Positions 1,386-37,504 of a DNA stretch of 40,667 bases are shown here, piece by piece. The position numbers were made by a program, and so were the translations under genes. The stretch comes from Pseudolabrys sp. (lineage in GTDB: Bacteria; Pseudomonadota; Alphaproteobacteria; Rhizobiales; Xanthobacteraceae). How positions within the stretch are numbered: position 1 is the stretch's first letter; the number at the start of each line of letters is the position of its first letter. The DNA is taken from NCBI GenBank assembly GCA_030651965.1, contig JAUSBQ010000267.1, forward strand, positions 1 to 40,667, given 5' to 3'. The notes beneath the pieces are model-generated. The model was not told where the DNA came from. It saw nothing but the letters and a program-made list of their open reading frames with translations, and did no database searches.

Positions 1386-2362
1386 TCGGCGCACGTCGCG
1401 GCGGCAGCAGCGGTATCCGCCGCTTTCGGCTTCAGTTCGGGATAGAGCGACACCGCAAGATCGCGCGCCGCTTGGGCGCTACGCGGCCCGAAGCCGAGCA
1501 TGTAGAGCCCTTCCATCGAGAGGAAGGCGCGGTTGGGGGCGGCCGGCGTCGCGGCGAAGGCCGGATGCGCGAACACCGCATCGGAGGTGACGGTGGCGGG
1601 GCCGGGTCCGCCGCGTTCCATCGTCAGCACCACGTCCGGCCTGGCTGCGATGACCGCTTCGTCGCTGATCTGCTTGTAACCTTCATAGGAGGTGATGACG
1701 TTCTCGGCGCCGGCCATGCGGATGATGCCGTCGGCGGCGGTCTTGGTCCCGCTCACCATGGCCTTGCCGCTGACGAAAGACAGAACGAACATCACGCGCT
1801 TGGACTTTGTAATGCCCGTTTCTAATTTGCCGAGCATGTCGAGATCGGCGCGTACGCGCGCGGCCAGGCATTCGCCGCGTTCGACCGCGCCGGTGGCCCG
1901 CGCGATGATCCGGATTTTCTCGACGATGCCGTCGCCGGTATAGGAATCGGGAACCACGACCAGCGGCACGCCCGCGGATTGCAACACGCCGAGCGTCTCC
2001 TTTGTGCCGCTGCCTTCGATGGCCAGGATCAGACTCGGCTTCAACCCGAGCACGCCCTCGGCCGACAACTGCCGCATATAGCCGACGCTTGGCTTCCCGG
2101 TGGCGGCGCGCGGATAGAGGCTCGTCGTATCGACGCCGACGATATTGTTCTCCTTGCCGAGCGCGTACAATATTTCGGTGACGGCGCCGCCGACCGAAAC
2201 GATGCGGCTGGCATCGTTGACCGTGACATTTCGGCCCGTCGCGTCTTTCAACACCGTGTCGCCGTGAGCGGTCAGAGACATCGTCACGGCGAGACAGGCG
2301 AGTATCCCGGTATGCAGAAAACGACGGGCGATGGCGACGGGACGCATGATGCTGGTTCTCAC
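1382..2362 (-). CDS. hmuT: Periplasmic heme-binding protein HmuT
   Basis: Substrate-binding protein of the helical-backbone (TroA/BtuF-like) class, 326 residues from GTG at 2362, or 321 from ATG at 2347. The N-terminus carries a signal peptide (hydrophobic stretch about residues 16-32, likely cleavage after TAHG). The conserved opening of the mature domain, RIVSVGGAVTEILYALG, and the mid-domain VGYMRQLSAEGVLGLKPSLI are typical of HmuT. It captures heme in the periplasm and delivers it to HmuU. The GTG start overlaps the hemP stop as GTGA. The C-terminal tail is alanine-rich and probably not part of the fold. Confidence 0.92.
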   Translation of the reverse strand: MRTSIMRPVAIARRFLHTGILACLAVTMSLTAHGDTVLKDATGRNVTVNDASRIVSVGGAVTEILYALGKENNIVGVDTTSLYPRAATGKPSVGYMRQLSAEGVLGLKPSLILAIEGSGTKETLGVLQSAGVPLVVVPDSYTGDGIVEKIRIIARATGAVERGECLAARVRADLDMLGKLETGITKSKRVMFVLSFVSGKAMVSGTKTAADGIIRMAGAENVITSYEGYKQISDEAVIAARPDVVLTMERGGPGPATVTSDAVFAHPAFAATPAAPNRAFLSMEGLYMLGFGPRSAQAARDLAVSLYPELKPKAADTAAAAATCAE

Positions 2363-2565
2363 TTCGTCAGGATGAGTTTGTTCTGCGCCGTCAGGCGCAG
2401 CCGGTAGATTTCATCGCCGTGGGCGATGGTGATCTCGCGAATGCCGGCGAACAGATCGCGGCTGTCCAAGCGGTTACCCGCCAGCAATATCTGGCGCTTT
2501 GAGTCGGCAGCACTCGGCGCCGCGCCGGTGTTGCTGGAATCGTCTTCATTCGTCGTCGTATTCAT
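2359..2565 (-). CDS. hemP: Hemin uptake protein HemP (HmuP family)
   Basis: Small protein of 68 residues. The conserved HemP core covers roughly residues 34-68: a DSRDLF motif, an HGDEIYRLRLT segment and the terminal NKLILTK. The first 25 residues are polar and look disordered. Family members sit at the head of heme-uptake operons. In Bradyrhizobium the homologue HmuP is described as a coactivator needed, with Irr, for heme-utilisation gene expression, so a regulatory role here is plausible by homology. It is first in the leftward operon, and its start faces the divergent promoter region shared with hmuR. Confidence 0.9.
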   Translation of the reverse strand: MNTTTNEDDSSNTGAAPSAADSKRQILLAGNRLDSRDLFAGIREITIAHGDEIYRLRLTAQNKLILTK

Positions 2566-2815
2566 CGCGCCAAGCCAGTAGTATTCGACATATTTATACT
2601 TACTTTTGAATCACTTTAAACTGTACTGTTTCCCGTACGATCTACTTTAGAGCCGTTTTAACTTACAAATACGCTGTTGACGTAAGTAATACAGGTTCTG
2701 TACAGATGGCAACAGAATGCTGCCGCCCAATAACGGCGCGGTATGCGAGCCAGCCAGTCGCTGCGTTTGTTGCGCGCGCCCGCCAGCCAATAAGTCAAAA
2801 ATTTGGGGGCGTTAG
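2566..2815. promoter_or_regulatory. Divergent heme-locus promoter region
   Basis: This 250-bp gap between hemP (left) and hmuR (right) is much more AT-rich than the flanking genes and has no convincing ORF. The hexamer ACTTAC occurs at 2598-2603 and 2661-2666, and inverted as GTAAGT at 2682-2687; the last two form a dyad with a 15-base spacer. CTGTACAG at 2698-2705 is a perfect 8-bp palindrome. Candidate promoter elements are TATAAA on the minus strand (2593-2598) toward hemP, and TTGACG (2677-2682) with TACAGA (2701-2706, 18-bp spacer) toward hmuR. I found no clear Irr ICE box or RirA-type box. hmuR has a GGGGGCG ribosome site just before its ATG. Confidence 0.6.
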
Positions 2816-5047
2816 ATGAATGGCATTCTGCGCGCGACGCGCGCGAGCACACTGGCGATTTCCGTTGCGGCAACCGGCATCGGCTTGACGACAGCGGCGT
2901 CGGCGCAAACCGCGCCGGCAACGACGATCACGCTCGACGCCATTACAGTGGTCTCGTCCAAGACCGAGGAAAAAGTCGTGGACGCACTCGCCCCGGTCAG
3001 CGTCGTCGGGCAGGAAGACATCAAGCGGCAGCAGCCGACCCGCATGTCCGACCTGTTCTATAATATCCCTGGCGTCTGGATGCAGGATCGCGGCGACGAC
3101 CCGTCAACGTCGATCAATATTCGCGGCCTTCAGGATTTTGGCCGTGTTGCCGTCATCGTCGATGGCGCGCGGCAGAATTATCAACGCACCGGCCACAACT
3201 CCAATGGTTCGTTCCATCTCGATCCGGAACTGGTCGGCAGTCTCGACGTCGCGCGCGGACCGACCGCGAATATCTACGGCTCTGGCGCCATCGGCGGCGT
3301 CGCCTCTTTTACCACCAAGGATATCAATGACGTCCTCCGCCCCGGCGAGAAATGGGGCGCCGACATTGGCGGCGGCATCGGCTCGAACAAATTGCAGGGC
3401 TACAGCTCGGCTTTCGGTGGCGTCCGCGTCAATCCGAACGTCGACGTGTTCGGCGGCGCGGTCTACCGCAGCCAGCAGAATTACAAGGACGGCGACGGCA
3501 CCGAAATCGCCAATACCTGGAACAACATTTCGAGCGGGCTGTTCAAGCTGACGGCGCGGCCGGCCGATGGTCACGAGGTCAAGTTCGGCACCGTGATGCA
3601 GAAGAACCTCCACAATGTCGGCCAGTACAATCGCGGCGCCACCACAACCGCGGCACCGCCGGCGGCGATCGCCGGCTCCTCGGTCTATGCCACCGACGTG
3701 ACCAACTACAACACCTCGTTGGGATGGAAATACTCCAAGCCGGACGACAAGCTGTTCGACTGGGACGCCAAGGTCTATTGGAACCGAACCGATAACGACC
3801 AGACCAAGATCTACAACAACCGCATCACCACCGGCGGCGGCACCTGTACGCTCGGCAATCCGGGCAACAACATATCGGGTTGCGTCGGCGATCCACGCAG
3901 CTACCGGCTCGACACCTTGGGCTTCGACATCCACAACACGTCACGCTTCGATGTGGGCAACTGGCACAACGCCCTGACCTACGGCATCGATGCATTTCAG
4001 GACGAAGTGTCGGCCACCGACGCCCGCGGCAATTCGGAAATCACCACGCCGGGCGGCAAGCGCACGGTTTCGGGCGGCTTCTTGCAATGGAAGGCGAATT
4101 ATTCGAACTGGCTGGAGATCGTCAGCGCCGCCCGTTACGACCATTATGAGCTGAAGTCCGCCGGCGTTTCGTCAAGCGGCAGCCGGCTGTCGCCGAAAAT
4201 CACCATCGGCGTAACCCCTGTGCCTGGCGTGACGCCCTATGTCAGCTATGCGGAGGGATACCGCTCGCCCTCCGTCACCGAAACATTGATCTCCGGGGCG
4301 CATGCCACCGGCGGCGGGCCGGCATTTTTTGTCTGTGCTGACGGCACCACCGGCCTGTTCTGCTTCCTGCCGAATCCCAATCTGCGGCCCGAGGTCGGCA
4401 AGAACAAGGAAGTCGGCATAAACCTGAAATTTGACAGCGTATTCGCGAAGGGCGACAGCTTCCGCGGCAAGCTGAACGGTTTCCAGAACGACATCGACGA
4501 CTACATCAATCCGGTGTCGTTCACCCCGACCCTCGTGTTCCCGTTCGGCACGTATAACCGGGATTACCAGTATCAGAACATCCCGCACGCGCGCATCCGC
4601 GGTGTGGAAGCGGAGATGATGTATGACGCTGGCGGCTGGTTCATCGGCTTCAGCGGCACGGTGCAGGAGGGCGAAAACACCCAGACCGGCGTCGGCCTCG
4701 CCACCATTCAGCCGCGCCGAATGACGACGACGGCCGGCGTTCGCTTGCTGGACCGCAAGCTGGTGCTGTCCGCGCAATGGTCGTCGGTAGCATCCAACAC
4801 GGATCTCCCCGCCGGCTATATACCATCGACGTCGTACGAGTTGGTCAACCTCTATGCGTCCTATCAAGCGACCAAGGACGTCTCGATGAACTTCTCGATC
4901 GACAACCTCTTCAACAAATACTACCGGCCCTACGCCATCCCGGGCGGCTCAGCCGACGGCACCACGCAGAACGACGTGCTGTGGACCAGCCCCGGCCCGG
5001 GCATCACCTTCAAGGGTGGGATCAAGGTTCATTTCGGCTCGACATGA
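2816..5047 (+). CDS. hmuR: TonB-dependent heme/hemoglobin receptor HmuR
   Basis: Outer-membrane receptor of 743 residues that imports heme using TonB energy. A signal peptide ends in ASA-Q at about residue 30. A TonB-box-like segment (about 38-49) precedes the plug domain (about 55-165), with typical text such as SINIRGLQDFGRVAVIVDG and VARGPTANIYGSGAIGG. The beta-barrel follows and ends in an aromatic-rich terminal strand. The heme-receptor hallmarks are a degenerate FRAP box (YRSP, 482-485), NPNL (520-523) and a histidine between them (H496), as in HmuR/HemR proteins. The arginine-alanine of FRAP is RS here. It lies head-to-head with hemP-hmuTUV, which supports heme as substrate. Confidence 0.93.
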   Translation: MNGILRATRASTLAISVAATGIGLTTAASAQTAPATTITLDAITVVSSKTEEKVVDALAPVSVVGQEDIKRQQPTRMSDLFYNIPGVWMQDRGDDPSTSINIRGLQDFGRVAVIVDGARQNYQRTGHNSNGSFHLDPELVGSLDVARGPTANIYGSGAIGGVASFTTKDINDVLRPGEKWGADIGGGIGSNKLQGYSSAFGGVRVNPNVDVFGGAVYRSQQNYKDGDGTEIANTWNNISSGLFKLTARPADGHEVKFGTVMQKNLHNVGQYNRGATTTAAPPAAIAGSSVYATDVTNYNTSLGWKYSKPDDKLFDWDAKVYWNRTDNDQTKIYNNRITTGGGTCTLGNPGNNISGCVGDPRSYRLDTLGFDIHNTSRFDVGNWHNALTYGIDAFQDEVSATDARGNSEITTPGGKRTVSGGFLQWKANYSNWLEIVSAARYDHYELKSAGVSSSGSRLSPKITIGVTPVPGVTPYVSYAEGYRSPSVTETLISGAHATGGGPAFFVCADGTTGLFCFLPNPNLRPEVGKNKEVGINLKFDSVFAKGDSFRGKLNGFQNDIDDYINPVSFTPTLVFPFGTYNRDYQYQNIPHARIRGVEAEMMYDAGGWFIGFSGTVQEGENTQTGVGLATIQPRRMTTTAGVRLLDRKLVLSAQWSSVASNTDLPAGYIPSTSYELVNLYASYQATKDVSMNFSIDNLFNKYYRPYAIPGGSADGTTQNDVLWTSPGPGITFKGGIKVHFGST

Positions 5048-5581: not shown

Positions 5582-6085
5582 ATGACCGAAACCGCGACTA
5601 TGACGCTGAAAGACAAGATGATGGCCGAGCCCGGCGCCATCGTCGAGACGGTGGCCAAGGAGTACGGCGTGACGCTGCGCGAGGTGGTCGAGGCGCTTCC
5701 CGAGGCGAACCGGCGCTTCGCGGCGGGCTCTGCCTTCGCCGAGGTCATGACCGAGGTGGCAGGCTGGGGCACGGTCACGCTGATCATCCATACCGACGAC
5801 GGCGTGAACGAGTTCACCGGGCCGATCGCGGCAGGCAAGATCGCGCAGAGCTACTACAACATCGGCGGCGGCACCGGCTTCCACGGTCATCTGCGCTATG
5901 AGCGGTGCGCCAGGATCGCTTTCGTCGAGCGGCCTCTGTTCGGCCGGCTGTCGGTGTCGATGCTGTTCATCAATGTCGACGGCGGCATCATGCACAAGAT
6001 CTTCGTCGGCCGCGACGAGAAGCGTGAGCTGCTGCCCGATCAACTGGCGAAATTCCGCGCGCTCGCCGACCGGATTTGCATCTAG
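5582..6085 (+). CDS. hutX: Cytosolic heme carrier protein HutX
   Basis: Protein of 167 residues matching the HutX/HugX/HuvX heme-utilisation family in length and text. The N-terminal helical part contains the repeated pattern of a GVTLREVVEALPEA segment. The core beta region includes WGTVTLIIHTDDGVNEF, the GGGTGFHGHL loop (95-104) and a C-terminal SVSMLFINVDGGIMHKIFVGRD segment. HutX homologues bind heme in the cytoplasm and pass it to a degrading enzyme, which fits the adjacent ABM protein. The start at 5582 is preceded by AGAGGAAA. It ends 10 bases before the stop of the convergent ligase-type gene, with no clear terminator in that gap. Confidence 0.9.
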   Translation: MTETATMTLKDKMMAEPGAIVETVAKEYGVTLREVVEALPEANRRFAAGSAFAEVMTEVAGWGTVTLIIHTDDGVNEFTGPIAAGKIAQSYYNIGGGTGFHGHLRYERCARIAFVERPLFGRLSVSMLFINVDGGIMHKIFVGRDEKRELLPDQLAKFRALADRICI

Positions 6086-6095
6086 TTGTTTGCGC

Positions 6096-7313
6096 CTAGG
6101 CTTGGCGATTTTTCAAAGCGACGCCGCCGGCAATGCCGATGCCGACGACGTAGAGCCAGCCATGGGTGAAGTCGAAGAGATGCGTGTTGAACTGCGAGCC
6201 CAGTATGTTCTGCGTGGCCACGACCAGGCCGACCCAGGACGCCAGCCCGGCGGCGCGGAACAGCAGCGCATGTGAGATCCACATCGCCAGCAGCACGGCG
6301 ATGCCGACAAAGCCGAGTTGAATGCCGACCGCTAGTATCTGGTTATGCGGATTGGTCGACACCGCCGCCGCCATGCCGGTGCGGCCGGCCGCGGAGCGTT
6401 CGAACTGGTCGCGGATCGAGCCGGTGCCGTGGCCGAAAATGGGCGCGGCCTGGATGAAGCCCGCCGACTTCGTCCAGAACACCAGACGTTCGCCGGCCGG
6501 CGTCGGCGGTCCGTCGGGTTGATACGACTGGACTTCCTGGACGAAGGTGCCGACACGCTGGCGCAGATAGCCGGCCGACGGCCAGGCCGCCGCCGCCAGC
6601 AACAGAAACACGGCCGCCGACGCGATGATGCCTTTCCAGCCGAACTGCCGGTAGCCGAACAGGACGAGCAGCGCCGGAATGACGACGAGCGATGTGCGGC
6701 TGGTGGCGACGTAAAAGACATTCGCCAGGAACAATACCGCCAGGACGCCGAGCGCCATCGCCAGATTGCGTCGCCCGTCGCGCCACATGCCGAAGGCAAT
6801 ATGGAGGGTGATCGCCACGCAGATCGTGAACATGGCGCCCTGCGAGATATAGTCCTTCACCGGAACGCCGAAGCCCTTGGCTTGCACGGGAAACGGCATG
6901 GCCGGCCAGATAAATATCACCCACGAGACCAGCAGCAGGAGGGTGCAGGAGGCGAGAAAGCCGATCAGGACATGATGCGCGCGCTGCGAAGTGACGAAAT
7001 GGCACATCAGCAGCGGGATGAACAACAATTTGAGAAAGGAGCTGATGCCGTTGGCGCGCTCGGCCCATGCGACATCGGCCCACAGCATTCCCAAGGCGCC
7101 GAGCGCCACCAGCATCAGGGGCAACCCGCCCGCTGGACTGAGGGCGATGCGGCGCAGGCGTGTCAGATCGCAAACCGGGATGAACGCCAGCAGCCAGAGC
7201 ACCGTCAATATGCCGGTCGCCGAGGTCGACCAAGGCAGCGACGCCGCGAGCAGCACGGCAAAAACGTCGGCCAGCGACTCAAGACGGTTGCGGACATGCG
7301 GCATCAGCTTCAT
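6096..7313 (-). CDS. O-antigen ligase/polymerase family membrane protein (WaaL/Wzy-like)
   Basis: Polytopic inner-membrane protein of 405 residues from ATG at 7313 (an upstream start at 7382 would add 23 polar residues and lies only 3 bases from a palindrome). About ten hydrophobic segments flank one large periplasmic loop. The Wzy_C-type signature is clear: an SRTS motif near residue 206, then AGFIQAAPIFGHGTGS (about 284-299) and NPHNQIL with H323. Members either ligate O-antigen to lipid A core or polymerise repeat units or EPS; sequence alone does not separate these. Its position at the head of a Wzx-containing locus makes it the best candidate here for Wzy. It is transcribed away from the biosynthesis operon. 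Confidence 0.82.
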   Translation of the reverse strand: MKLMPHVRNRLESLADVFAVLLAASLPWSTSATGILTVLWLLAFIPVCDLTRLRRIALSPAGGLPLMLVALGALGMLWADVAWAERANGISSFLKLLFIPLLMCHFVTSQRAHHVLIGFLASCTLLLLVSWVIFIWPAMPFPVQAKGFGVPVKDYISQGAMFTICVAITLHIAFGMWRDGRRNLAMALGVLAVLFLANVFYVATSRTSLVVIPALLVLFGYRQFGWKGIIASAAVFLLLAAAAWPSAGYLRQRVGTFVQEVQSYQPDGPPTPAGERLVFWTKSAGFIQAAPIFGHGTGSIRDQFERSAAGRTGMAAAVSTNPHNQILAVGIQLGFVGIAVLLAMWISHALLFRAAGLASWVGLVVATQNILGSQFNTHLFDFTHGWLYVVGIGIAGGVALKNRQA

Positions 7314-8449: not shown

Positions 8450-9094
8450 ATGGCCAACGCCGCCGAGCAAGAAAAGGGTGAAAACCCTATGATTATGCTA
8501 GGGATTCTCGAATCCGTCGAACGCGACGGCGGACAATCCCAACGGCATCTGGCGGCGGAACTCGGGGTCGCCCTCGGGCTGGTCAACGCCTACCTGAAAC
8601 GTTGCGTGAAGAAGGGTCTACTCAAGGTCAGCGAGGCGCCCGCCCGGCGTTATGCCTACTACCTGACCCCACACGGCTTCTCCGAGAAATCGCGGCTGAC
8701 CGTCCAATACCTCTCGCATTCCTTCGGCTTTTTCCGCCGGGCGAAATCCGACTGTTCGCTGCTGCTGCAAGCGGCCGAGCAGAAGGGCATCCGCCGCATC
8801 CTTCTCGCGGGCAAGTCCGATCTCGCCGAAATCACCGCGATCTGCGCGCTCGACCACGGCATCGAGATCGTGGCGGTGGTCGATCGTCAGGCGGGCGAAG
8901 CGCGGTTCATCGGCTTGCCGGTCTATCCGGACTATGGCGCGGTGCGCGAACAATTCGACGCCGTTATGATCACTGACATGGTCGACGCGCGCGAGAGCGC
9001 CGACCGGGCCATCGCCCGCTTCGGCGCCGACCGAGTGCTGATTCCGGAATTGCTGCGCATCCGCATCGTCAAATTGCAGGAGGCCGCGTCATGA
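8450..9094 (+). CDS. Winged helix-turn-helix regulator with Rossmann-like sensor domain
   Basis: 214 residues in two parts. Residues about 12-85 form a MarR-like winged helix: recognition region SQRHLAAELGVALGLVNAYLK (about 30-50) and a wing ending in RRYAYYLTPHGFSEK. Residues about 114-205 resemble a Rossmann or CoA-binding fold (RRILLAGKSDLAEI, VAVVDRQ, FDAVMITD, DRVLIPELLR), as in the N-terminal parts of sugar-nucleotide dehydratases. I infer a repressor or activator that senses a nucleotide, CoA or sugar-nucleotide ligand. Two palindromes directly upstream suggest autoregulation. The stop overlaps the next start (ATGA), coupling it to the NusG-like antiterminator. Ligand and direction of control are unknown. 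Confidence 0.82.
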   Translation: MANAAEQEKGENPMIMLGILESVERDGGQSQRHLAAELGVALGLVNAYLKRCVKKGLLKVSEAPARRYAYYLTPHGFSEKSRLTVQYLSHSFGFFRRAKSDCSLLLQAAEQKGIRRILLAGKSDLAEITAICALDHGIEIVAVVDRQAGEARFIGLPVYPDYGAVREQFDAVMITDMVDARESADRAIARFGADRVLIPELLRIRIVKLQEAAS

Positions 9095-9606
9095 CCTTGA
9101 TCGCAGGGCCTCGCTGGTACGTGGTACAAACGCAGCCGAACGCCGAGCGCAAGGCCGACGCGCATCTCGTTCGTCAGGGATTTCAGACTTATCTGCCGCG
9201 CTATCAGAAGCGGCGGCGTCACGCCCGCAAGGTCGACCTGGTGCCGGCCGCGCTTTTTCCTCGCTACATGTTCGTATCGATCGATGTCGCCACGCAGCGC
9301 TGGCTCGCCATTCGCTCGACTGTCGGCGTCACGCAGGTGGTCTGCAACGGCAATGAGCCGGCCGTTGTTCCCGTCGGCGTTGTCGAACAACTCAAAGCCA
9401 GCGAAGACGCCGCCGGGTTCATCCCGCTCGATACACGTCCGCACTTTAATCCGGGCGACAAGATCAAGGTTATGGACGGCGCCTTCACCGATTGTCTTGG
9501 CCTGATCGATACTGTTACCGACCGCGAGCGCGTTGCCATTCTACTCGACCTTCTCGGGCGCAAGGTTCGCGTCGTCCTTGATGCAGACTTCATCGCCGCG
9601 GCCTGA
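9091..9606 (+). CDS. NusG/RfaH-like transcription antitermination factor
   Basis: 171 residues with an NGN domain (about 8-105; opening RWYVVQTQPNAERKA, then LFPRYMFVSID) and a C-terminal KOW domain (about 118-165; FNPGDKIKVMDG). This is the architecture of specialised NusG paralogues (RfaH, LoaP, ActX), which load onto RNA polymerase at a leader signal and let it read through long polysaccharide operons. The gene is coupled to the regulator upstream (4-base overlap). It lies 116 bases ahead of the first sugar gene, and that gap carries a hairpin and an ops-like element. It is not the housekeeping NusG: it lacks nusG neighbours such as secE and rplK and sits in an accessory locus. Confidence 0.9.
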   Translation: MTLIAGPRWYVVQTQPNAERKADAHLVRQGFQTYLPRYQKRRRHARKVDLVPAALFPRYMFVSIDVATQRWLAIRSTVGVTQVVCNGNEPAVVPVGVVEQLKASEDAAGFIPLDTRPHFNPGDKIKVMDGAFTDCLGLIDTVTDRERVAILLDLLGRKVRVVLDADFIAAA

Positions 9607-9677: not shown

Positions 9678-9685
9678 GCGGTAGC
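9678..9685 (+). promoter_or_regulatory. ops-like antiterminator recruitment site
   Basis: GCGGTAGC matches the core of the RfaH ops element (GGCGGTAGC in enterobacteria) at eight of nine positions, missing only the first G. It lies in the leader between the NusG/RfaH-like gene and the first biosynthetic gene, as expected for a pause and recruitment site. Caution: the shorter string CGGTAGC also occurs by chance inside hmuR near 4785. Confidence 0.5.
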
Positions 9686-9722: not shown

Positions 9723-10724
9723 ATGAAACTCAAGCATATCCTGATAACCGGTGGGACCGGGTCGTTTGGCTCGGTGATGGCCGAGCGACTCCTGGCGGAG
9801 CCAGGCGTCGAGCGCATAACGATCTTCAGCCGCGATGAATTCAAGCAGCACGAGATGTGGACCCGGTTTCATACCCCGAAGCTGGCCTTCATCATCGGCG
9901 ACGTGCGCGATCGGGATGCCGTCGCCGACGCCATGCCGGGCGTTGATGCGATCTTCCACGCGGCGGCTCTCAAATCGGTGCCGACCGGCGAATTCTTCCC
10001 GATGGAAGACGTGCGCACCAACACGATCGGTACGCACAACGTCCTCGATGCCGCCGAAAAGGCCGGCGTCGGCCGCGTGATCGTCCTGTCGACCGACAAG
10101 GCCGTGCATCCGATCAACGTCATGGGCATGACCAAGGCGCTTGCCGAAAAGATGGTCGAGGCCAAAGGGCGCAATAGTGCAACGTCCACGGTGTTCGCGA
10201 CCACGCGTTACGGCAACGTGATGGGCTCGCGCGGCTCGGTGATCCCGCACTTCATCGGTCAGATCAAAGCCGGCAAGGATATCACCGTCACCAATCCCGA
10301 CATGACGCGCTTTCTCTTGTCGCTCGAAGGCGCAATCGATTTGGTTCTCTTTGCGCTCGAAAACGCCAAGCAAGGCGATCTGTTCATCCGCAAGGCGCCG
10401 GCCTGTACGGTCGATGTCCTCGCCAAAGCAGTTCTTGAAATATTTGACGCGAAGAACCCGATCCGCATCATCGGCACGCGCGGCGGCGAAAAGCTGCATG
10501 AGACATTGGCGACCGGCATCGAGTTGGCCTCGACCGAGGACATGGGCGACTACTTCCGGATTCCGAAGGTCGTGACCAGCTTGGACTACGATCCGTTTTT
10601 CGAAGGCGGTCTCGTCAAGACTCTGGCCGACGACTACACTTCGGAGAACACGACGCGGCTCGATAAAGCGCAGACTATGGCGCTTCTTCTGAAAGAGCCA
10701 TTTGTGCAAGAAGCGCTCAAGTAA
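9723..10724 (+). CDS. UDP-GlcNAc 4,6-dehydratase/5-epimerase, CapE-like
   Basis: Soluble short-chain dehydrogenase/reductase-type protein of 333 residues. The NAD-binding GGTGSFG lies at 10-16, STDK at 123-126, and the catalytic pattern is M134-x3-K138 instead of Tyr-x3-Lys, typical of the SMK-type inverting dehydratases (CapE/WbjB/FnlA, PseB). The C-terminal half (FIRKAPACTVDVLAKA, IGTRGGEK, EDMGDYFRIP) resembles CapE more than PseB. CapE turns UDP-GlcNAc into a 4-keto-6-deoxy-L-arabino-hexulose. I chose ATG at 9723 because it gives the family N-terminus; the frame stays open back to 9657 but that would overlap the leader signals. It is the first gene of the pathway with the next three. Confidence 0.88.
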   Translation: MKLKHILITGGTGSFGSVMAERLLAEPGVERITIFSRDEFKQHEMWTRFHTPKLAFIIGDVRDRDAVADAMPGVDAIFHAAALKSVPTGEFFPMEDVRTNTIGTHNVLDAAEKAGVGRVIVLSTDKAVHPINVMGMTKALAEKMVEAKGRNSATSTVFATTRYGNVMGSRGSVIPHFIGQIKAGKDITVTNPDMTRFLLSLEGAIDLVLFALENAKQGDLFIRKAPACTVDVLAKAVLEIFDAKNPIRIIGTRGGEKLHETLATGIELASTEDMGDYFRIPKVVTSLDYDPFFEGGLVKTLADDYTSENTTRLDKAQTMALLLKEPFVQEALK

Positions 10725-10745
10725 GAGACGGAGCAGATTTCCCGA

Positions 10746-11849
10746 ATGAAAAGCATCCCCCTTTTCAAAGTATTCATGCCGCCGGAGGTGGACGCGGCGG
10801 TGCTTGAGACGCTGCACAGCGGCTATCTGGCGGAAGGTCCGCGCGTGCGCGAGTTCGCCGAAACCGTCGGCAAATTTCTCGGGACGCAGTACACTATTCC
10901 GGTATCGAGCTGCACGATGGGTCTCACCATCAGCTATGACGCGGCCGGCATCCGCGCCGGCGATGAGGTGATTACGACGCCGCTGACATGCGTCGCGACC
11001 AATACGCCGCTGCTGCATCTCGGCGCCAAGATCGTGTGGGCGGACTGCGAAGCAAAGACCGGCATGGTCGATCCGAATTCGCTGGAAAAAATTATCACCA
11101 AGAAGACCAAGGCCATCGTCGTTCTGCACAAGGACGGCGATCTCGCCAGGATGGATCAGATCCTCGCGATCGCGAAGGCGCACAATCTCAAGGTCATCGA
11201 GGATGCCGCGCACACATTCGGCGCCAAATACAAGGGCAGGAATGTCGGTACGATGGGCGACTTCACCTGCTTCTCGCTGCAGGCGATCAAGCACATAACC
11301 ACCGGCGACGGCGGCATCATCACCTGCACCAACGAAGACGACTACCGGCGTGCCAACGCGCTGAAATGGTTTGGCCTCGACAAGGCGGCGATCCCCGCCG
11401 GTACCAGCCCATGGGATCACGATATTTCGTTGGTCGGCTACAAGGCGAATTTGAACGATCTTGCCGCGACGATCGGGCTGGTTCAGATGCGCCACGCCGA
11501 CGACATCCTGGCGCGCCACAACCGCAACGGCAATCTCTACAGTGAGTTGCTGGCAGGGGTTCCCGGGGTGGAACTGATCGCGCGGGACGCCGGCAATTTC
11601 GAAACCTATTGGACCTATGTCATCCTGGCCGAAAAGCGCGATGCCATCCGCGCCGCGCTGGCCGCCGAGGGGATCGCCTCGCAGGTCATTCACCCGCGCA
11701 ACGACACCTACAGCATCTTCAAGACATCACGCCGCGACTTGCCGGGCGTTGACTACTTCTCCGCCCGCGAACTGTCACTCCCCTGCGGCTGGTGGGTGGA
11801 CGAAGACGACATCCGCCGTATCGCCAACATCATAAAGCGCAGCGCATGA
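10746..11849 (+). CDS. DegT/DnrJ/EryC1-type sugar aminotransferase
   Basis: PLP-dependent aminotransferase of 367 residues that should aminate a 4-keto (or 3-keto) nucleotide sugar. The Schiff-base lysine is K182 in SLQAIKHITTGDGG, preceded by the cofactor-binding VIEDAAHTFGAKYKG. The usual VHLYG-type segment reads VVLHKDGDLARMD, a less common variant. It starts 21 bases after the CapE-like gene and ends in a 4-base overlap with the 2-epimerase. In L-FucNAc clusters a CapF reductase acts on the CapE product; here this aminotransferase occupies that place, implying a 4-amino sugar. Exact substrate is inferred. Confidence 0.88.
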   Translation: MKSIPLFKVFMPPEVDAAVLETLHSGYLAEGPRVREFAETVGKFLGTQYTIPVSSCTMGLTISYDAAGIRAGDEVITTPLTCVATNTPLLHLGAKIVWADCEAKTGMVDPNSLEKIITKKTKAIVVLHKDGDLARMDQILAIAKAHNLKVIEDAAHTFGAKYKGRNVGTMGDFTCFSLQAIKHITTGDGGIITCTNEDDYRRANALKWFGLDKAAIPAGTSPWDHDISLVGYKANLNDLAATIGLVQMRHADDILARHNRNGNLYSELLAGVPGVELIARDAGNFETYWTYVILAEKRDAIRAALAAEGIASQVIHPRNDTYSIFKTSRRDLPGVDYFSARELSLPCGWWVDEDDIRRIANIIKRSA

Positions 11850-12979
11850 AAGTTATGACCATCCTCGGCACGCGTCCGGAGATCATCCGGCTCGCGGCCA
11901 TCATCAAGAAACTTGACCAGTTCTGCACGCATGTCCTGGTGCACACCGGCCAAAACTATGATTATGAGTTGAACAAGGTGTTCTTTGAGGACCTGGAGCT
12001 GCGCCAGCCGGATATCCAGCTTGAAGTGCGGTCAGACACGCTGCACGGCCAGATCGCCAACATCATCCGCGAGACCGGGGCCGCGCTTGAGAAAGAGCGG
12101 CCGGATGCGTTGCTCGTTCTCGGCGACACGAACTCCGCGCTCTCGGTCATCAATGCGAAGCGCCTGAAGATTCCGGTTTTCCACATGGAAGCGGGCGACC
12201 GTTCATTCGACGAGAACGTGCCCGAAGAACTCAACCGGCGCATCGTCGACCACGTCGCCGACGTCAACCTCGCTTACACCGAGTACAGCCGGAAGAATCT
12301 CCTGCGCGAAGGCATCCATCCGAGCCGGGTATACGTTACGGGCTCGCCCATTCGCGAAGTCTACGCGAATATGATGGACAAGTTCGCGGCCTCGGCCATC
12401 ATGAAAACACTGGGCCTCGAGAGCGGCAAGTTCATCACGGCGTCGATTCACCGGGAAGAGAACGTCGATATCGAAGGCGGCCTCGAGAAGATGGTCGACT
12501 CCTACAATGCTCTGATTGAGAAGTACGGATTTCCCGTAATCGTTTCCACTCATCCGCGGACGATGAAGCGCCTGGAACAGCGCGGCCTCCTCGCCAAATC
12601 GAGCAAGAAGATCAATTGGCATAAGCCTTTCGGTCTGATTGACTACATCAATCTGCAGATGAATTCGTTCGTCGTCGTGTCGGACAGCGGCACGATCCAC
12701 GAGGATTCCAGCATTCTCGACTTTCCGGCGATTGCCATTCGCCGCTCTACCGAAAAGGCAGAATCGATCGACGCCGGCCACTGCGTCATGAGCGGCCTCG
12801 ACAAGGAAGACGTGCTGCGCAACGTCGCCATTGCCGTGGAAGACCGCGTCAATCAGAAACTGTCGCCGATGCCGCTGGAGTACACGCCGCTGAATGTCTC
12901 GTCCAAGGTCCTGCGTATCGTCGTCGGCACCGCCTCGATCGTCGACAAGCAGGTCTGGGGGGACAAGAAACATGTTTAA
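11846..12979 (+). CDS. Non-hydrolysing UDP-N-acetylhexosamine 2-epimerase (WecB/CapG-like)
   Basis: 377 residues, GT-B fold epimerase. Characteristic segments are MKVMTILGTRPEIIRLA at the start, HTGQNYDYELN, GDTNSALS, HMEAGDRSFDENVPEE, TASIHREENVD and VVSDSGTIHEDSSIL. The GDRSFDENVPEELNRRI text is closer to CapG/FnlC (UDP-L-PneNAc to UDP-L-FucNAc) than to housekeeping WecB (GlcNAc to ManNAc). Together with CapE and the cupin it implies an L-configured 2-acetamido sugar. ATG at 11846 forms an ATGA overlap with the aminotransferase stop, and the 3' end overlaps the cupin gene by eight bases. Confidence 0.87.
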   Translation: MKVMTILGTRPEIIRLAAIIKKLDQFCTHVLVHTGQNYDYELNKVFFEDLELRQPDIQLEVRSDTLHGQIANIIRETGAALEKERPDALLVLGDTNSALSVINAKRLKIPVFHMEAGDRSFDENVPEELNRRIVDHVADVNLAYTEYSRKNLLREGIHPSRVYVTGSPIREVYANMMDKFAASAIMKTLGLESGKFITASIHREENVDIEGGLEKMVDSYNALIEKYGFPVIVSTHPRTMKRLEQRGLLAKSSKKINWHKPFGLIDYINLQMNSFVVVSDSGTIHEDSSILDFPAIAIRRSTEKAESIDAGHCVMSGLDKEDVLRNVAIAVEDRVNQKLSPMPLEYTPLNVSSKVLRIVVGTASIVDKQVWGDKKHV

Positions 12980-13373
12980 GGCGCCGTACGACGTCCGCCA
13001 ACTGAAACTGCACCGAGACGCACGTGGCGATCTTTTCGAAATATTGCGGTTTCCGGACGATTCAATTCCGCCAGCCGGCTACATCTATGCCTACACGATC
13101 AATCCAGGTGCGCGTCGGGGCGACCACTATCATGAGCGCAAGCATGAATGGGTGACCTGCGCTGCCGGCGCCTTCTCGGTGCTGGTCGAAGACAAAGACG
13201 GCAACAAAGCTCGTTTCGAGCTTAGCGCCGAACATCCGTCAATCGTATACTTCGCGCCCTATTGCGTGCACGCTGTGCTGAACGAGGGCAAAGATGTCGG
13301 CGTAGCGATTTCCTACGGTTCGTCGCCGCATGATCCGGCGGACCCGGACACCATCATGAAGTTCATTGCTTGA
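12972..13373 (+). CDS. Stand-alone CapF-type cupin (sugar 3-epimerase-like)
   Basis: 133 residues, single cupin domain. The metal-binding motif GDHYHERKHEW and the ending SPHDPADPDT match the C-terminal cupin half of bifunctional CapF/FnlB, which epimerises C3 of the 4-keto intermediate. The N-terminal NADPH reductase half of CapF is absent here and nowhere else in the window. The protein is therefore likely a free-standing 3-epimerase working between the CapE-like enzyme and the aminotransferase. It ends in an 11-base overlap with the convergent acetyltransferase gene. WxcM/FdtA-like ketoisomerases are a more distant alternative. Confidence 0.8.
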   Translation: MFKAPYDVRQLKLHRDARGDLFEILRFPDDSIPPAGYIYAYTINPGARRGDHYHERKHEWVTCAAGAFSVLVEDKDGNKARFELSAEHPSIVYFAPYCVHAVLNEGKDVGVAISYGSSPHDPADPDTIMKFIA

Positions 13374-13812
13374 TGTCGCGCAGATCGATCTGCATACGGT
13401 GCACGTGCTGTTTCTTCTTGAAGCCGGCTTTTGTGTAGAAGCCAATGGTTTCGTCGCTGCAATCAAGGCGGACGACAAGGCAACCTTTCCGCTTGGCTTC
13501 TTCGATGGCGGCTTCCACGAGGCGCATTCCGATGCCTTGCTTCTCGAAGCCTTTTCTAACCGCCATGTCTTCGATGTATGCAAAGCGTGCGCCGTTCAAG
13601 ATGAATTTCTGTTCGACCAGCAGCGTTGTGGCGCCGACGATTTCGCCGCCGAGTTCAGCGACGAAAATCCGGTAGACCGGGTTGTCGCGAATCTTGTCGA
13701 AAATAATCACAGCGTCCTGCTCGTCGAGTCCCGCTTTGAACAGGTTTGAAATGCTTTCCAGAAAGCCATTCCGCAGATCGTTTTTTTCGAGCAGTCGTAT
13801 TTGCAGGGTCAT
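13363..13812 (-). CDS. GNAT acetyltransferase resembling GNA1 (GlcN-6-P N-acetyltransferase)
   Basis: 149 residues, one GNAT domain. The central FAYIEDMAVRKGFEKQGIGMRLV contains the acetyl-CoA-binding Q-x-x-G-x-G/A-type loop (KQGIGM). The following CLVVRLDCSDETIGFYTKAGFKKK parallels eukaryotic GNA1 (IEDIAV, LDCDEKN..FYEKCGF) as I remember it. Acceptor is probably an amino sugar. It is on the opposite strand to everything around it and overlaps the cupin gene end. Two sampled 60-base stretches have 34 and 30 G+C, visibly below the flanking rhamnose genes, so it may be a separate acquisition. It could finish the 4-amino sugar by N-acetylation; this is inference. Confidence 0.8.
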   Translation of the reverse strand: MTLQIRLLEKNDLRNGFLESISNLFKAGLDEQDAVIIFDKIRDNPVYRIFVAELGGEIVGATTLLVEQKFILNGARFAYIEDMAVRKGFEKQGIGMRLVEAAIEEAKRKGCLVVRLDCSDETIGFYTKAGFKKKQHVHRMQIDLRDIKQ

Positions 13813-15536: not shown

Positions 15537-16453
15537 ACGTGGCGACATCCGCAAAGCCGATGGCCCTTGTAATCGGCACCGGCCAGTTGGGGCAGGAACT
15601 GGCGCGGGTGCGGACCTCGCATTTGCTGGTGAAGGTTGTCGGCCGCGACACCCTCGACGTGACCGACGCAGCCGCCACTCAGGCCGCGATCAGAAAAGTT
15701 CGCCCTTCCATCGTGCTCAACGCCACGGCCTACACCGCGGTCGACAGAGCCGAGGCGGAGCCCGCAGCGGCATTCGCCGTCAACCGCGACGGCGCTGCCA
15801 CTCTGGCGACGGTTTGCGCTGAACTTGGCATTCCGCTGATCCACGTTTCGACCGACTATGTGTTCGACGGTGATAGCGGCCCCTATACGGAAAATTCCGC
15901 GGTTGCGCCGCGTTCGGTCTATGGCGACAGCAAGCTGCAAGGCGAAATCGAAATCCGTTCGGGGCTGGAGCGTCACATTATTTTGCGCACCGCCTGGCTG
16001 TTCAGCTCGTTCGGCAACAACTTCGTCAAGACGATGCTGCGCCTGAGCGCGACCAGATCCGAGATTCAGGTGGTTGACGATCAGTTCGGCTGCCCGACGC
16101 CGGCAGCCGCGTTGGCGCAGGCGATCGTCGCGCTGGCAGAGAAAGCCGTCGGGGGCGGTTCGCTGGCCTGGGGCACGTATCATTTCGCCGGCCAGCCCGC
16201 GACAACCTGGCGGCGCTTTGCCGAGCATATATTCGACCGCGCAGCGGCAATCGGTCTGATCGGCAGCGTGCCCAGGGTCATTCCGATCACGACAGCGCAA
16301 TATCCGACAGCGGCGCGCCGTCCGGCCAATTCGGTGCTGAGCTGCGATGCGCTGGCGGCGCTCGGCCTCACGGCGCCGGACTGGCACGCGGGGCTTGCCG
16401 CCGTCCTCGACGACCTGCGGCTGGCCCGCATTACCGGGAGTGTCGTGCATTGA
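15533..16453 (+). CDS. rfbD: dTDP-4-dehydrorhamnose reductase
   Basis: 306 residues from ATG at 15533; the frame is open upstream but that start gives the 4-base overlap and a normal length. SDR features: IGTGQLG near residue 14, STDYVFDG at 106-113, and Y130-x3-K134 (VYGDSK). It reduces the RfbC product to dTDP-L-rhamnose with NAD(P)H. The stop overlaps rfbA as TTGA. The first ten residues before VIGTGQLG are longer than usual and may be a soft N-terminus. Confidence 0.95.
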
Positions 16454-22300: not shown

Positions 22301-23284
22301 ATGAACGCAATTCTGCGCTTCTTTATCCCGGTTCTATTGATTGGCGTTTGTATTCCGGTTGGAACGATGGCGCTGGTACAGCCGATTGCCGGTGACCTGA
22401 CCCGCATCGGGTTTCTGCCGGAGCGCTCATTTGGCTGGAACGCGCCGCAACCGCCGATCTTGGCGGCTGCCGCCAACGCAGCGCCGGACAAGGCGAGAAT
22501 TGTCGTCGTGGGCGATTCGTTCACCTGGACCGGGCTATGGCAGAGTGCCGCCTTCACCGACCAGGACCGCTACATCAGCTTCGGGTTCGGCGACATCTGT
22601 GCGGATATTGGCGCTTACATGCAAAAATTCGGGCTCGCGCCGGATGTGGTCATCGTGGAGGCGGTCGAACGGCTATTCGCGCAGCGTTTCCTCTCCAAAT
22701 GCGCGGCATCGGACCTCAAGCCGTCGCTGCCGAATGCGACGAAGCCGACGCAGCCACAGCGCGACACCGGCATTCTTTACGGATCGTTCGGCGCGAAATA
22801 CGCGCTAGGCGGGCTTCTCTATCTGGCGCGGCCGGGTCCGCAGCATCGCGCCACCGGCAGCGGCGGCGTCTATGTGCGGCCGGTGCCGGATGGCTGCGCA
22901 CGATTCTCGCATGCGGATTGTGGCAATGCGCTGTTTCTCGGCAACGACGAACTGCTGCCGTCGCTGCCATTGACCGAATACGATAGCCCAATGATCGCGT
23001 ATCTAAAGGCCGCCGGCGTGAAGAAGATCATCGTCATGTCTATACCCAACAAGACATCGATCTATCTGCGTTCGGCCGAACAGGCAGAGCGCAGCGACGC
23101 CTATCTCGCCGAATTCGCCCGCCGCAACGGGGTGCAGGCGGTGCCGCTGCACACTTTGCTCATCGGCCTGAAGGAAAAGCACCGCGACCTTTACTTCGGC
23201 AACGACAGCCATCTGTCGAACGAAGGCATGACGATCCTGGGCGCGCAGATTCGAGATGTGATGCGTGCCGGCGGGCCGCGATGA
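22301..23284 (+). CDS. Periplasmic SGNH partner of the MBOAT protein (AlgJ/AlgX-like)
   Basis: 327 residues. An N-terminal hydrophobic segment (about 5-27) anchors or exports the protein. The SGNH nucleophile block is VVVGDSFTW (S73), and the acid/base pair is D302 and H304 in FGNDSHLSNEG, close to the AlgJ/X-type ending. It probably takes the acyl group delivered by the MBOAT protein and places it on the polysaccharide in the periplasm. It starts right after the MBOAT stop and overlaps the glycosyltransferase start (ATGA). Confidence 0.82.
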   Translation: MNAILRFFIPVLLIGVCIPVGTMALVQPIAGDLTRIGFLPERSFGWNAPQPPILAAAANAAPDKARIVVVGDSFTWTGLWQSAAFTDQDRYISFGFGDICADIGAYMQKFGLAPDVVIVEAVERLFAQRFLSKCAASDLKPSLPNATKPTQPQRDTGILYGSFGAKYALGGLLYLARPGPQHRATGSGGVYVRPVPDGCARFSHADCGNALFLGNDELLPSLPLTEYDSPMIAYLKAAGVKKIIVMSIPNKTSIYLRSAEQAERSDAYLAEFARRNGVQAVPLHTLLIGLKEKHRDLYFGNDSHLSNEGMTILGAQIRDVMRAGGPR

Positions 23285-24366
23285 TTCGCATTGCTCTTCT
23301 GTTCGCGCAGAGCGACGTCAATGCCACGCTGAGTTACCAGCATGGCTGGCCACGCGCCATCATGGAAAGTCCGCTGTTCGAGACCGTCCCGTTCAACTTC
23401 GCCGGCCGCTCGCTTGCAGGCCGGCTGGCGCTCGTCGGCAGGATTGCCGCCAGCCGCGTCGACGCCATCGTGCTTCTGCACTCGATGTATTCAAACCAGA
23501 ACGAGCTGCGCGGCCCGCTACCTTGGCTGCTCGGCAGGCTTCCCCAGCCAAAGGCATTCTTCATCGGCAACGAGTATAAGGGCATGCCGGAGAAGATGGC
23601 GTTTTGCCGTTCGCTTCGCCTGTCGCTTTTGATCAGCCAATGCAACGCACCAGCCGTGCTCGAACTTTATCGCCGGGAACTGGGTTGCGCGGTTTCCAGC
23701 GTCCCCAATACCGGCTTTGATGAGAAGATTTTCGCTCCCGCTGTTCCGCTCGCCGATCGTCCGGTCGATATCGGCTACCGGTCCTTCGAGCCGCCGTGGT
23801 ATCTCGGCAACCGCGAGAAGATCGAGATCGCCGATTTCTTCCTTGCCGCCGCGCCGCGCTATGGCCTGAAGGTGGATATTTCTCTCGATCCGAAGGACCG
23901 TTTTGACGCCGCCGGCTATGCCGGATTTCTCAATCGTTGCCGCGCGCAGATTGGCACCGAGTCGGGCGGCGATTACTTCGAACTGACCGACGCAACGCGT
24001 AACGCGGTCAACGCCCATATGGACGAAAATCCCGATGCGACATGGCCGGAGGTGCGGCGGCGCTTCTTCGACAATTATGGCCCGTCGACTGCGCTGCGCA
24101 TCATCAGCGGCCGCCAGGTCGAGGCCGCGGCGTGCAAGACGGTGCAGATTTTAATGGAGGGCGACTACAACGGCTATCTCAAGCCCGGCATTCACTACAT
24201 CCCGCTGCGCAAGGATTATTCGAATGCCGATGACGTGGTGAGAATGCTGCACGACGATGCGCTATGCGCCTCCATGACCGAGGCCGCCTATCAGGTGGCG
24301 CGGCAGGAACTGACTTACGCGAAACTTACCGGCAAGTTCGCCGCCGCGCTGCGGACTGTCCTTTAA
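23281..24366 (+). CDS. Glycosyltransferase, GT-B/CgeB-like
   Basis: 361 residues. The C-terminal half reads like Glyco_trans_1_2 (CgeB-type) enzymes: ALRIISGRQVEAAACKTVQILMEGDYNGYL, then PGIHYIPLRKDYSNADDVVRML and a C-terminal helical tail. The N-terminal half has FFIGNEYKGMPEKMAFCR. Donor and acceptor cannot be read from sequence. It bridges the acylation genes and the nonulosonate genes, with an ATGA overlap upstream and a 20-base gap downstream. Confidence 0.75.
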   Translation: MIRIALLFAQSDVNATLSYQHGWPRAIMESPLFETVPFNFAGRSLAGRLALVGRIAASRVDAIVLLHSMYSNQNELRGPLPWLLGRLPQPKAFFIGNEYKGMPEKMAFCRSLRLSLLISQCNAPAVLELYRRELGCAVSSVPNTGFDEKIFAPAVPLADRPVDIGYRSFEPPWYLGNREKIEIADFFLAAAPRYGLKVDISLDPKDRFDAAGYAGFLNRCRAQIGTESGGDYFELTDATRNAVNAHMDENPDATWPEVRRRFFDNYGPSTALRIISGRQVEAAACKTVQILMEGDYNGYLKPGIHYIPLRKDYSNADDVVRMLHDDALCASMTEAAYQVARQELTYAKLTGKFAAALRTVL

Positions 24367-24386
24367 CGGCCGACAGAGGCAATGCT

Positions 24387-25385
24387 TTGAAAAAAATTCT
24401 GGTCACGGGTGCCGATGGCTTCATCGGCTCGCACCTCACCGAAGCACTGGTGCGCAAGGGCTACGACGTCCGCGTCTTCGTGCTGTACAACTCGTTCGGA
24501 ACCTGGGGCTGGCTCGATCGCGCCCCGGACGATATTCGCTCCAGCCTTGACGTGTTCGCAGGCGACATCCGCGATCCGCATGGCGTCAAGGAAGCCATGA
24601 AAGGCTGCAATGCGGTGCTGCATCTGGCGGCCTTGATTTCAATTCCGTTCTCCTACCATTCACCGGACGCCTATATCGACACCAATATAAAGGGCACGCT
24701 CAATGTGCTCCAGGCGGCGCGCGAGCTCGGAACGAAGCGCGTCATTCACACCTCGACCAGCGAGGTCTACGGCACCGCGCGTTTCGTACCGATCACGGAA
24801 GAGCATCCGGTGTTGGGCCAGTCGCCTTACTCAGCCTCGAAAATCGGCGCCGATCAACTGGCTTATTCGTTCTTCGCGTCGTTCGATACGCCGGTGACCA
24901 TCGCGCGGCCGTTCAATACCTATGGCCCCCGCCAGTCGGCGCGCGCCGTCATTCCGACCGTGATTGCGCAGATCGCCAACGGCGCATCGCGGCTCAAGCT
25001 CGGCGCGGTGCATCCGACGCGCGATTTCAGTTACATCGGCGACACGGTCGCCGCTTTCATTGCTTTGCTTGAGAGCGGTAAGGGCCTCGGCGAGGTCGTC
25101 AATTTCGGCTCGGGCTTCGAGATATCGGTCGGCGATACCGTGGCGATGATCGCCGAGGTGATGGGCGCCGCGGTCGAGATCGAGACCGACGCGCAGCGCG
25201 TACGACCGGCCTTGAGCGAAGTCGAACGGCTGTGGGCCGATAATTCGAAGGCGCGGGAATTGCTGGGCTGGTCGCCGGCCTATGGCGGACGTGACGGCAT
25301 GCGGCGCGGCCTGGCGGAGACGGTGGCGTGGTTCACCGATCCGGCCAATCTCGCGCAATACAAAAGCAATCTCTACAACATCTGA
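24387..25385 (+). CDS. legB: NAD-dependent 4,6-dehydratase LegB
   Basis: 332 residues from TTG at 24387 with AGAGGC upstream; no ATG preserves the N-terminus KKILVTGADGFIGSHL. Extended SDR with TSTSEVYG and SPYSASK (Tyr-x3-Lys). The segment HLAALISIPFSYHSPDAYIDTN is characteristic of LegB-type dehydratases of legionaminic acid synthesis, which in Campylobacter act on GDP-GlcNAc. The PtmE-like guanylyltransferase downstream supports the GDP route. The stop overlaps the LegC start (TGATG). Confidence 0.9.
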   Translation: MKKILVTGADGFIGSHLTEALVRKGYDVRVFVLYNSFGTWGWLDRAPDDIRSSLDVFAGDIRDPHGVKEAMKGCNAVLHLAALISIPFSYHSPDAYIDTNIKGTLNVLQAARELGTKRVIHTSTSEVYGTARFVPITEEHPVLGQSPYSASKIGADQLAYSFFASFDTPVTIARPFNTYGPRQSARAVIPTVIAQIANGASRLKLGAVHPTRDFSYIGDTVAAFIALLESGKGLGEVVNFGSGFEISVGDTVAMIAEVMGAAVEIETDAQRVRPALSEVERLWADNSKARELLGWSPAYGGRDGMRRGLAETVAWFTDPANLAQYKSNLYNI

Positions 25386-27737: not shown

Positions 27738-27761
27738 TATGCTTTCGGGGGAGGTCCGTCC

Positions 27762-37468: not shown

Positions 37469-37504
37469 ACCGATGAAGCAACGGCAGCGGAGGGCGTTTC
37501 AGTC

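Follow-up and report, generated by a model that had tools for sequence, protein, structure and literature searches.

Among the closest described systems to the locus considered here is the UDP-L-FucNAc pathway, whose steps are attributed to CapE, CapF and CapG (also named FnlA, WbjC and FnlC) in the portion of PMC3699295 available to us. CapF fuses a short-chain dehydrogenase/reductase (SDR) domain to a cupin, and the accessible part of PMC5393024 describes the cupin domain as catalyzing epimerization and requiring Zn. The present analysis concerns a DNA stretch of 40,667 nt from Pseudolabrys sp. (contig JAUSBQ010000267.1 of assembly GCA_030651965.1), referred to here as the window, in which four genes at 9723-13373 encode CapE-like and CapG-like proteins and a CapF-type cupin together with an aminotransferase. 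The genome comprises 4.66 Mb in 468 contigs and is about 90% complete. The set resembles the UDP-L-FucNAc pathway in having a CapE-type protein, a CapF-type cupin and a CapG-type protein, and the first intermediates are likely the same, but it differs in that the cupin is free and accompanied by an aminotransferase, that CapF as an SDR fused to a Zn cupin was not found in it, and that its CapG and cupin group apart from those of CapF loci. We hold, with a confidence somewhat above even, that the set forms a complete pathway of its own to a nucleotide sugar destined for a surface polysaccharide, in which amination at C4 would follow C3 epimerization by the cupin and CapG would act last.

All four reading frames are intact and lie on one strand, with a gap of 21 nt between the CapE-like and aminotransferase genes followed by overlaps of 4 and 8 nt. 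The first gene (9723..10724, +, 333 aa) encodes a CapE/FnlA-like UDP-GlcNAc 4,6-dehydratase/5-epimerase; its top NCBIfam model was FnlA TIGR04130 at 373 bits, below the curated cut-off of 730, while the PseB model gave 303.6 bits, below its cut-off of 407.75, and Pfam returned PF02719 (312 bits) and the C-terminal domain PF08485 (39.8 bits). The closest PDB entries to this protein were 4j2o and CapE 3vvb, and its D125, K126, M134 and E256 align with D125, K126, M134 and E257 of CapE, residues named in the part of PMC3699295 available to us, so that the catalytic residues are kept. The second gene (10746..11849, +, 367 aa) encodes a DegT/DnrJ/EryC1/StrS aminotransferase (PF01041, 297 bits), with K182 as the presumed pyridoxal phosphate (PLP) lysine. 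Its best NCBIfam model was PseC at 232.7 bits, below the cut-off of 423.5, and the nearest PDB entries were 4zwv, 4xau and 4zas, with CalS13 and ArnB also close by; 4zwv, 4xau, CalS13 and ArnB we take to be C4 aminotransferases. The third gene (11846..12979, +, 377 aa) encodes a CapG/FnlC-like non-hydrolyzing UDP-sugar 2-epimerase, supported by a top PDB match to CapG 7ya2 (388 bits) and by TIGR00236 (250 bits, cut-off 210), with 60 bits to the NeuC-type model. It keeps D94, E115, E128 and H202, whose catalytic roles are presumably those of WecB. Frames, profiles and PDB matches all agree with the naming of the four genes in the initial annotation.

The fourth gene (12972..13373, +, 133 aa) encodes a stand-alone CapF-type Zn cupin, the presumed C3-epimerase. 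The protein matched PF14667 at 56 bits (cut-off 28.7) and covers positions 251-365 of the CapF model NF047837 (372 positions; 27 bits); profile scans of the window bore out the earlier claim that the cupin half is a separate gene and that the CapF reductase half is absent from the set, and there is no dedicated reductase for the C4 ketone within the four genes. Putative metal ligands H52, H54, E59 and H100 are present in all six sets described below and align with those of CapF cupins, and the K/R-G-x-H-x-H spacing fits Lys285, Gly286, His288 and His290 of CapF, as these residues are given in the accessible part of PMC5393024. We modeled the window cupin with AlphaFold2 (mean predicted local distance difference test score 77, the other four models reaching only 35-48; predicted template modeling score 0.72), and in a Foldseek search of this model the top five PDB matches were all CapF (E 3e-10 to 3e-9, template modeling score 0.76-0.77, root-mean-square deviation 1.8-2.0). 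The FdtD/FdtA ketoisomerases ranked lower, behind other cupins, at E of about 2e-6 and a template modeling score of ~0.56. For each of the five set cupins compared with Pfam, PF14667 also outscored the FdtA family, and although the FdtA cut-off is passed, the closest family and fold of the window cupin are those of CapF and not of FdtA.

The initial annotation had suggested looking for the same genes elsewhere, and they do recur together in other genomes. A contig scan with a two-row aminotransferase alignment, which is limited to proteins carrying either of two exact peptide patterns, gave 58 loci, and complete sets with CapE, CapG and cupin homologs beside the aminotransferase were found at L022, L023 and L024, the last from Aestuariispira insulae and counted once with L016 of genome G270, which has the same layout. 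The aminotransferase is present by selection in these three loci and in L077, as all were found through it; L138 of genome G835 was found by its cupin, and its aminotransferase, CapG, cupin and CapE (54%, 65%, 46% and 53% identical to those of the window) lie side by side. We consider the set to be more than a chance arrangement, since other genomes carry the same group of genes and one of these was found via the cupin alone. The order is CapE-aminotransferase-CapG-cupin in the window and aminotransferase-CapG-cupin-CapE in L016/L024, L023 and L138, and at L022 the CapE gene lies 3.6 kb downstream of the cupin.

The four-gene set is rare and scattered among genomes, being shared by a handful of distantly related bacteria. 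A search with the aminotransferase in 60 relatives (E <= 1e-60) returned only the window itself, and one in 385 genomes of the class (E <= 1e-70) returned seven matches including the window's own; among the six others only G270 (53% identical) has the remaining set genes adjacent, and no CapG or cupin was seen in the examined stretches around the matches in G410, G333, G326, G158 and G381. An alignment search with the cupin in the same 385 genomes (1e-8) gave four matches, two of them strong (G000 and G270, ~230 bits) and two weak ones in long frames (49-59 bits; G071, a CapF, and G114). Further cupin searches found two of 43 genomes in the order of G270 (G270 and G835), one of 43 in the window's genus (the window) and one of 398 in the phylum at 1e-15 (again the window). 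None of three plasmid matches of the aminotransferase that were examined has the set, the best (40%) being a locus of CapE plus two DegT genes, and a plasmid search by cupin gave 15 records at most 33% identical, 11 of them annotated as CapF or as epimerase/dehydratase and four without a feature name. At L076 of Omnitrophota (1806-4050), the gene for an aminotransferase sharing 48% identity with that of the window overlaps a CapE-like gene (39%) and is not accompanied by a cupin or CapG, which may represent an intermediate type of locus.

As UDP-L-FucNAc comparators we used E. coli O26 and O25, both of which have FnlA-CapF-FnlC, together with 12 CapF loci and L040 of the scan. A CapF-like protein (E <= 1e-60) was found in 12 of 200 genomes of the phylum, eight of them over the curated cut-off, and CapE, a CapF-type cupin and CapG stand together in all 12 of these regions, as they do in L040; the CapF match in the G571 region is split in two pieces. 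The set genes are co-inherited. In trees that include E. coli rows and are unrooted, so that groups denote one side of a branch rather than proven clades, the cupins of all six sets were separated from 14 CapF cupins (100/100), the CapGs of five out of five sets from 15 CapF- or RmlD-linked CapGs (100/100), and, among 65 aminotransferase rows, all six set members from the 59 others (SH-aLRT 99), while the CapEs of five of the six sets grouped together (97/96). Identities follow the same division, at 44-53% to the window for five set cupins and 26-31% for 13 CapF-locus cupins, and at 64-77% for four set CapGs and 47-52% for 13 CapF-linked ones. In the first five sets, nine columns of the aminotransferase do not vary, and their residues occur in no more than 8% of the 54 other scan members, four being absent from all of these; K129 is the clearest case, with Tyr or Trp in 53 of the 54 and Val in one. 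The CapG alignment has six columns fixed differently between sets (4/4) and others (15/15), among them D118, an Asn in all 15 others, which lies three residues past E115 and may contact the amine. L138 carries all nine aminotransferase residues, K129 included, without having been used in the discovery of these columns, and all six CapG residues, D118 included.

A CapF-type reductase encoded elsewhere had been raised in the initial annotation as one finding that would overturn its reading, and a profile search of contigs with NF047837 detected no CapF over the cut-off in any of the six set genomes, that of the window being the ~90% complete assembly noted above. Besides the cupin, the window's genome has three matches to this model, at 26-32 bits and all in the dehydrogenase half, and the top match in each of the genomes of L022, L023, L024, L077 and G835 is to the free cupin, with all others at or below 40.1 bits and none over the cut-off. 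RmlD was over its cut-off in two of five genomes tested, the window's (beside rml genes) and that of L077, and the profile search did not find it over the cut-off in the genomes of L022, L023 and L024; the L023 genome has a partial 79-bit match where a contig begins, which may come from a truncated RmlD, and the L022 assembly is only 0.6 Mb. Aestuariispira insulae is the only one of the five genomes tested for both that is near complete (99%) and has neither CapF nor RmlD.

These sequence comparisons give good support to an amination replacing the CapF reduction, because the sets recur in genomes with no CapF over the cut-off, are co-inherited and in several cases have neighbors of amine-modifying types. 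In this respect the earlier proposal of an amination stands, while the C4 position and the identity of the hexose, like each chemical step, the order of the steps and the stereochemistry, are what we infer from the genes. CapE would convert UDP-GlcNAc to UDP-2-acetamido-2,6-dideoxy-L-arabino-hexos-4-ulose, the free cupin would epimerize C3 of this product, the PLP aminotransferase would add an amino group at C4 where the CapF SDR domain performs an NADPH-dependent reduction, and CapG would invert C2 in the last step. The amino donor in the DegT-type aminotransferase family is probably glutamate. The expected product is UDP-2-acetamido-4-amino-2,4,6-trideoxy-L-hexose, most likely the L-galacto isomer (L-FucNAc4N) formed via L-talo, and delivery of nitrogen from the other face would yield the L-manno/L-gluco pair instead; amination at C4 leading to L-galacto appears to be the most economical reading of a CapF-type cupin together with CapG. 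Lineage-specific enzymes may then acylate, formylate or methylate the amine. It is conceivable, if somewhat short of an even chance, that the set is a dedicated and horizontally spread UDP-L-FucNAc4N route whose swappable modifying genes supply 4-N-modified 2,4-diamino-L-fucoses. A 2,4-diamino-L-fucose with a 4-N-methyl group is described from the LPS of B. pertussis in the available part of PMC10609480, while the available part of PMC8048906 gives FucNAc4N in the CSDB, as of 2020, as the D isomer only, so that the papers differ.

Genes for acetyl-, formyl- and methyltransferase-like proteins adjoin several sets and would suit a product bearing a free amine, without proving one. The window has a GNAT N-acetyltransferase gene (13363..13812, -, PF00583 63 bits) convergent with the cupin gene, and its acetylation of the new amine is possible but unproven. 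We rejected this GNAT as a conserved fifth member of the set, since the 58 loci gave a single weak match (30%, L046) and L016 and L138 gave none. The gene after the set in L023 is also a GNAT, with PseH as its best NCBIfam model (66 bits, cut-off 93), and between CapE and a glycosyltransferase-like gene there is a GNAT in L016 and a methyltransferase-like gene plus a formyltransferase gene (5801-6589, PF00551 72 bits) in L138. The formyltransferase occupies the place of the L016 GNAT, as if N-formyl had replaced N-acetyl. The methyltransferase-like proteins of L022 (9662-10375, beside the cupin) and L138 (6605-7324) are 38% identical (E 7e-41) and could perform 4-N-methylation; at L077, no amine-modifying gene was seen by eye directly beside the cupin. 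The glycosyltransferase-like proteins that accompany the set in three loci are candidates for using the new sugar: that of the window (23281..24366, +, PF13524 20 bits, under the cut-off of 25) is 39% identical to that of L138 (4404-5495), which lies just downstream of the set and is 64% identical to that of L016 (8389-9483). L016 and L138 also share an ABC transporter (38%) further along. Upstream of the set, the window encodes an RfaH/UpxY-like antiterminator (9091..9606, +, TIGR01955 121 bits, cut-off 144.5; PF02357), and the 116-nt gap between it and CapE contains GCGGTAGC (9678..9685, +), which we liken to the core of the ops element. It is the sole copy in the window, against 1.48 expected in the whole window from shuffles.

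A number of observations weigh against C4 amination by a dedicated set. The CapE of L023 has Leu at the catalytic-site Met134, and L077 has CapE and a cupin but no CapG in its 15-kb locus, with its CapE lying outside the group formed by the other five. A CapE-like frame accompanies the aminotransferase in 37 of the 58 scan loci, always on the same strand and within 1.5 kb in 26, which speaks for the proposed route, but 21 loci have none, 19 of them with at least 2 kb on both sides, and the aminotransferase group is therefore not bound to CapE products; a second aminotransferase is adjacent in 34 of the 58. The window GNAT is on the opposite strand and not common to other sets, and the methyltransferase-like genes are below Pfam cut-offs (L022) or have no Pfam match (L138). 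The cupins of the window, L016, L022 and L077, though not that of L023, pass the Pfam cut-off for FdtA, the window's scoring 36.9 bits against PF05523 (cut-off 23). This last match would suit amination at C3, with the cupin acting as an FdtA-like 3,4-ketoisomerase and CapG inverting C2 to give UDP-2-acetamido-3-amino-2,3,6-trideoxy-L-hexose, which we consider unlikely and yet retain as the chief rival mainly because of its link to the L-RhaNAc3NAc of E. coli O109, the nearest aminating relative that we found and one predicted to make a 3-amino sugar. The accessible part of PMC9676051 gives this sugar for O109 and predicts WeiS, WeiP and WeiQ as the makers; we would match these names to its GNAT and DegT genes. 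The first O109 DegT is 36% identical to the window's. Against amination at C3 stand the ranking of CapF over FdtA in both Pfam and fold comparisons, the annotated O109 stretch, which lists no CapF-type cupin, and the tree position of the set aminotransferases, apart from those of O109. The set cupins also keep the full HxH-E-H metal set, which to our knowledge is missing from FdtA-type enzymes.

Three further alternatives are less likely. The window carries a legionaminic-acid-type cluster at 24264-38302 (dehydratase, DegT, 2-epimerase, NeuB, PglD-like, CBS-nucleotidyltransferase, oxidoreductases, cytidylyltransferase and SDR), and a NeuB-like frame was seen by eye in L016, as would be expected if the diamino-L-hexose were freed from UDP and condensed with phosphoenolpyruvate into a nonulosonic acid; this is improbable, as the CapG-like protein is of the non-hydrolyzing type by its TIGR00236 and NeuC-type scores, the NeuB cluster encodes a dehydratase, a DegT protein and a 2-epimerase of its own, and no NeuB-like frame was seen by eye in L022, L023, L077 or L138. 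A split UDP-L-FucNAc pathway, in which a reductase encoded elsewhere takes over from the SDR half of CapF and another sugar is the substrate of the aminotransferase, could draw on an RmlD-type reductase over its cut-off at 15572-16414, and with the window's genome ~90% complete a reductase at another place is still conceivable. That RmlD gene adjoins rmlC and frames reading by eye as rmlB and rmlA, however, while Aestuariispira insulae has the full set with neither CapF nor RmlD over the cut-offs and L138, although found by its cupin, has the aminotransferase inside the cluster, so that we give this explanation very little credence. No greater is the probability of a PseB/PseC pathway with extra genes leading to an L-altrose diamine: PseC is the best model of the aminotransferase but at a score well under its cut-off, the dehydratase scores higher with FnlA than with PseB and carries both the Met and the C-terminal domain of CapE, and this pathway leaves no place for a C3-epimerase and CapG.

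If C4 amination after C3 inversion is correct, the product would be a rare L-sugar with two amino groups, probably for a surface coat, the pairing of a free CapF cupin with a neighboring DegT gene (HKDG/HKEG motif) would be a genome signature predicting diamino-L-sugars, and the enzymes would offer a possible route to UDP-linked 2,4-diamino-L-hexoses, useful in glycan synthesis. The sets also suggest that the cupin half of CapF can be inherited as a module separate from the reductase. A literature search, with most subscription journals outside its coverage, found no description of such a gene set, in line with the initial annotation's statement that no well-described pathway has this composition, but that statement needs to be tempered, as E. 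coli O109 is a close aminating relative. As a possible precedent we also weighed aciABCD, the genes for acinetaminic acid, and set them aside as unrelated, since they act after CMP-legionaminic acid according to the part of PMC5595891 available to us.

The E. coli comparators come from a partial survey, in which ten regions were taken from listings for 202, 416 and 461 records. The O109/O182 module (GNAT, two DegT, flippase and CapE) resembles the set in combining a CapE-type protein with DegT and a GNAT nearby, but has two adjacent DegT genes where the set has one aminotransferase, and its annotated stretch lists no CapG either; three of the module genes are marked as frameshifted in the O182 strain examined. 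Modules of this type, CapE plus two adjacent DegT genes, are widespread in Proteobacteria, Bacteroidota and Bacillota (among L029-L075, and L119, L121 and L006). The O123/O186 (FnlA-RmlD-FnlC) and O3 (FnlA-RmlD) loci, which we take to be L-QuiNAc and L-RhaNAc pathways, likewise share the CapE-type protein, and O3 is without FnlC as L077 is without CapG, but an RmlD-type reductase stands where the set has its aminotransferase, and no CapF is listed. The start of the pseudaminic pathway (PseB, PseC and PseH) has in common with the set an inverting dehydratase followed by an aminotransferase, as well as the PseH-like GNAT of L023, but the window's dehydratase and aminotransferase fall under the PseB and PseC cut-offs, and we know of no C3 or C2 epimerization ahead of acetyl transfer in that pathway. 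Among the sugars derived from CapE products, L-FucNAc arises by reduction with inversion of C3, L-RhaNAc and L-QuiNAc by reduction without such inversion, and the pseudaminic acid precursor by amination, again without it; the series lacks a case in which amination follows C3 inversion, and the four-gene set would fit there.

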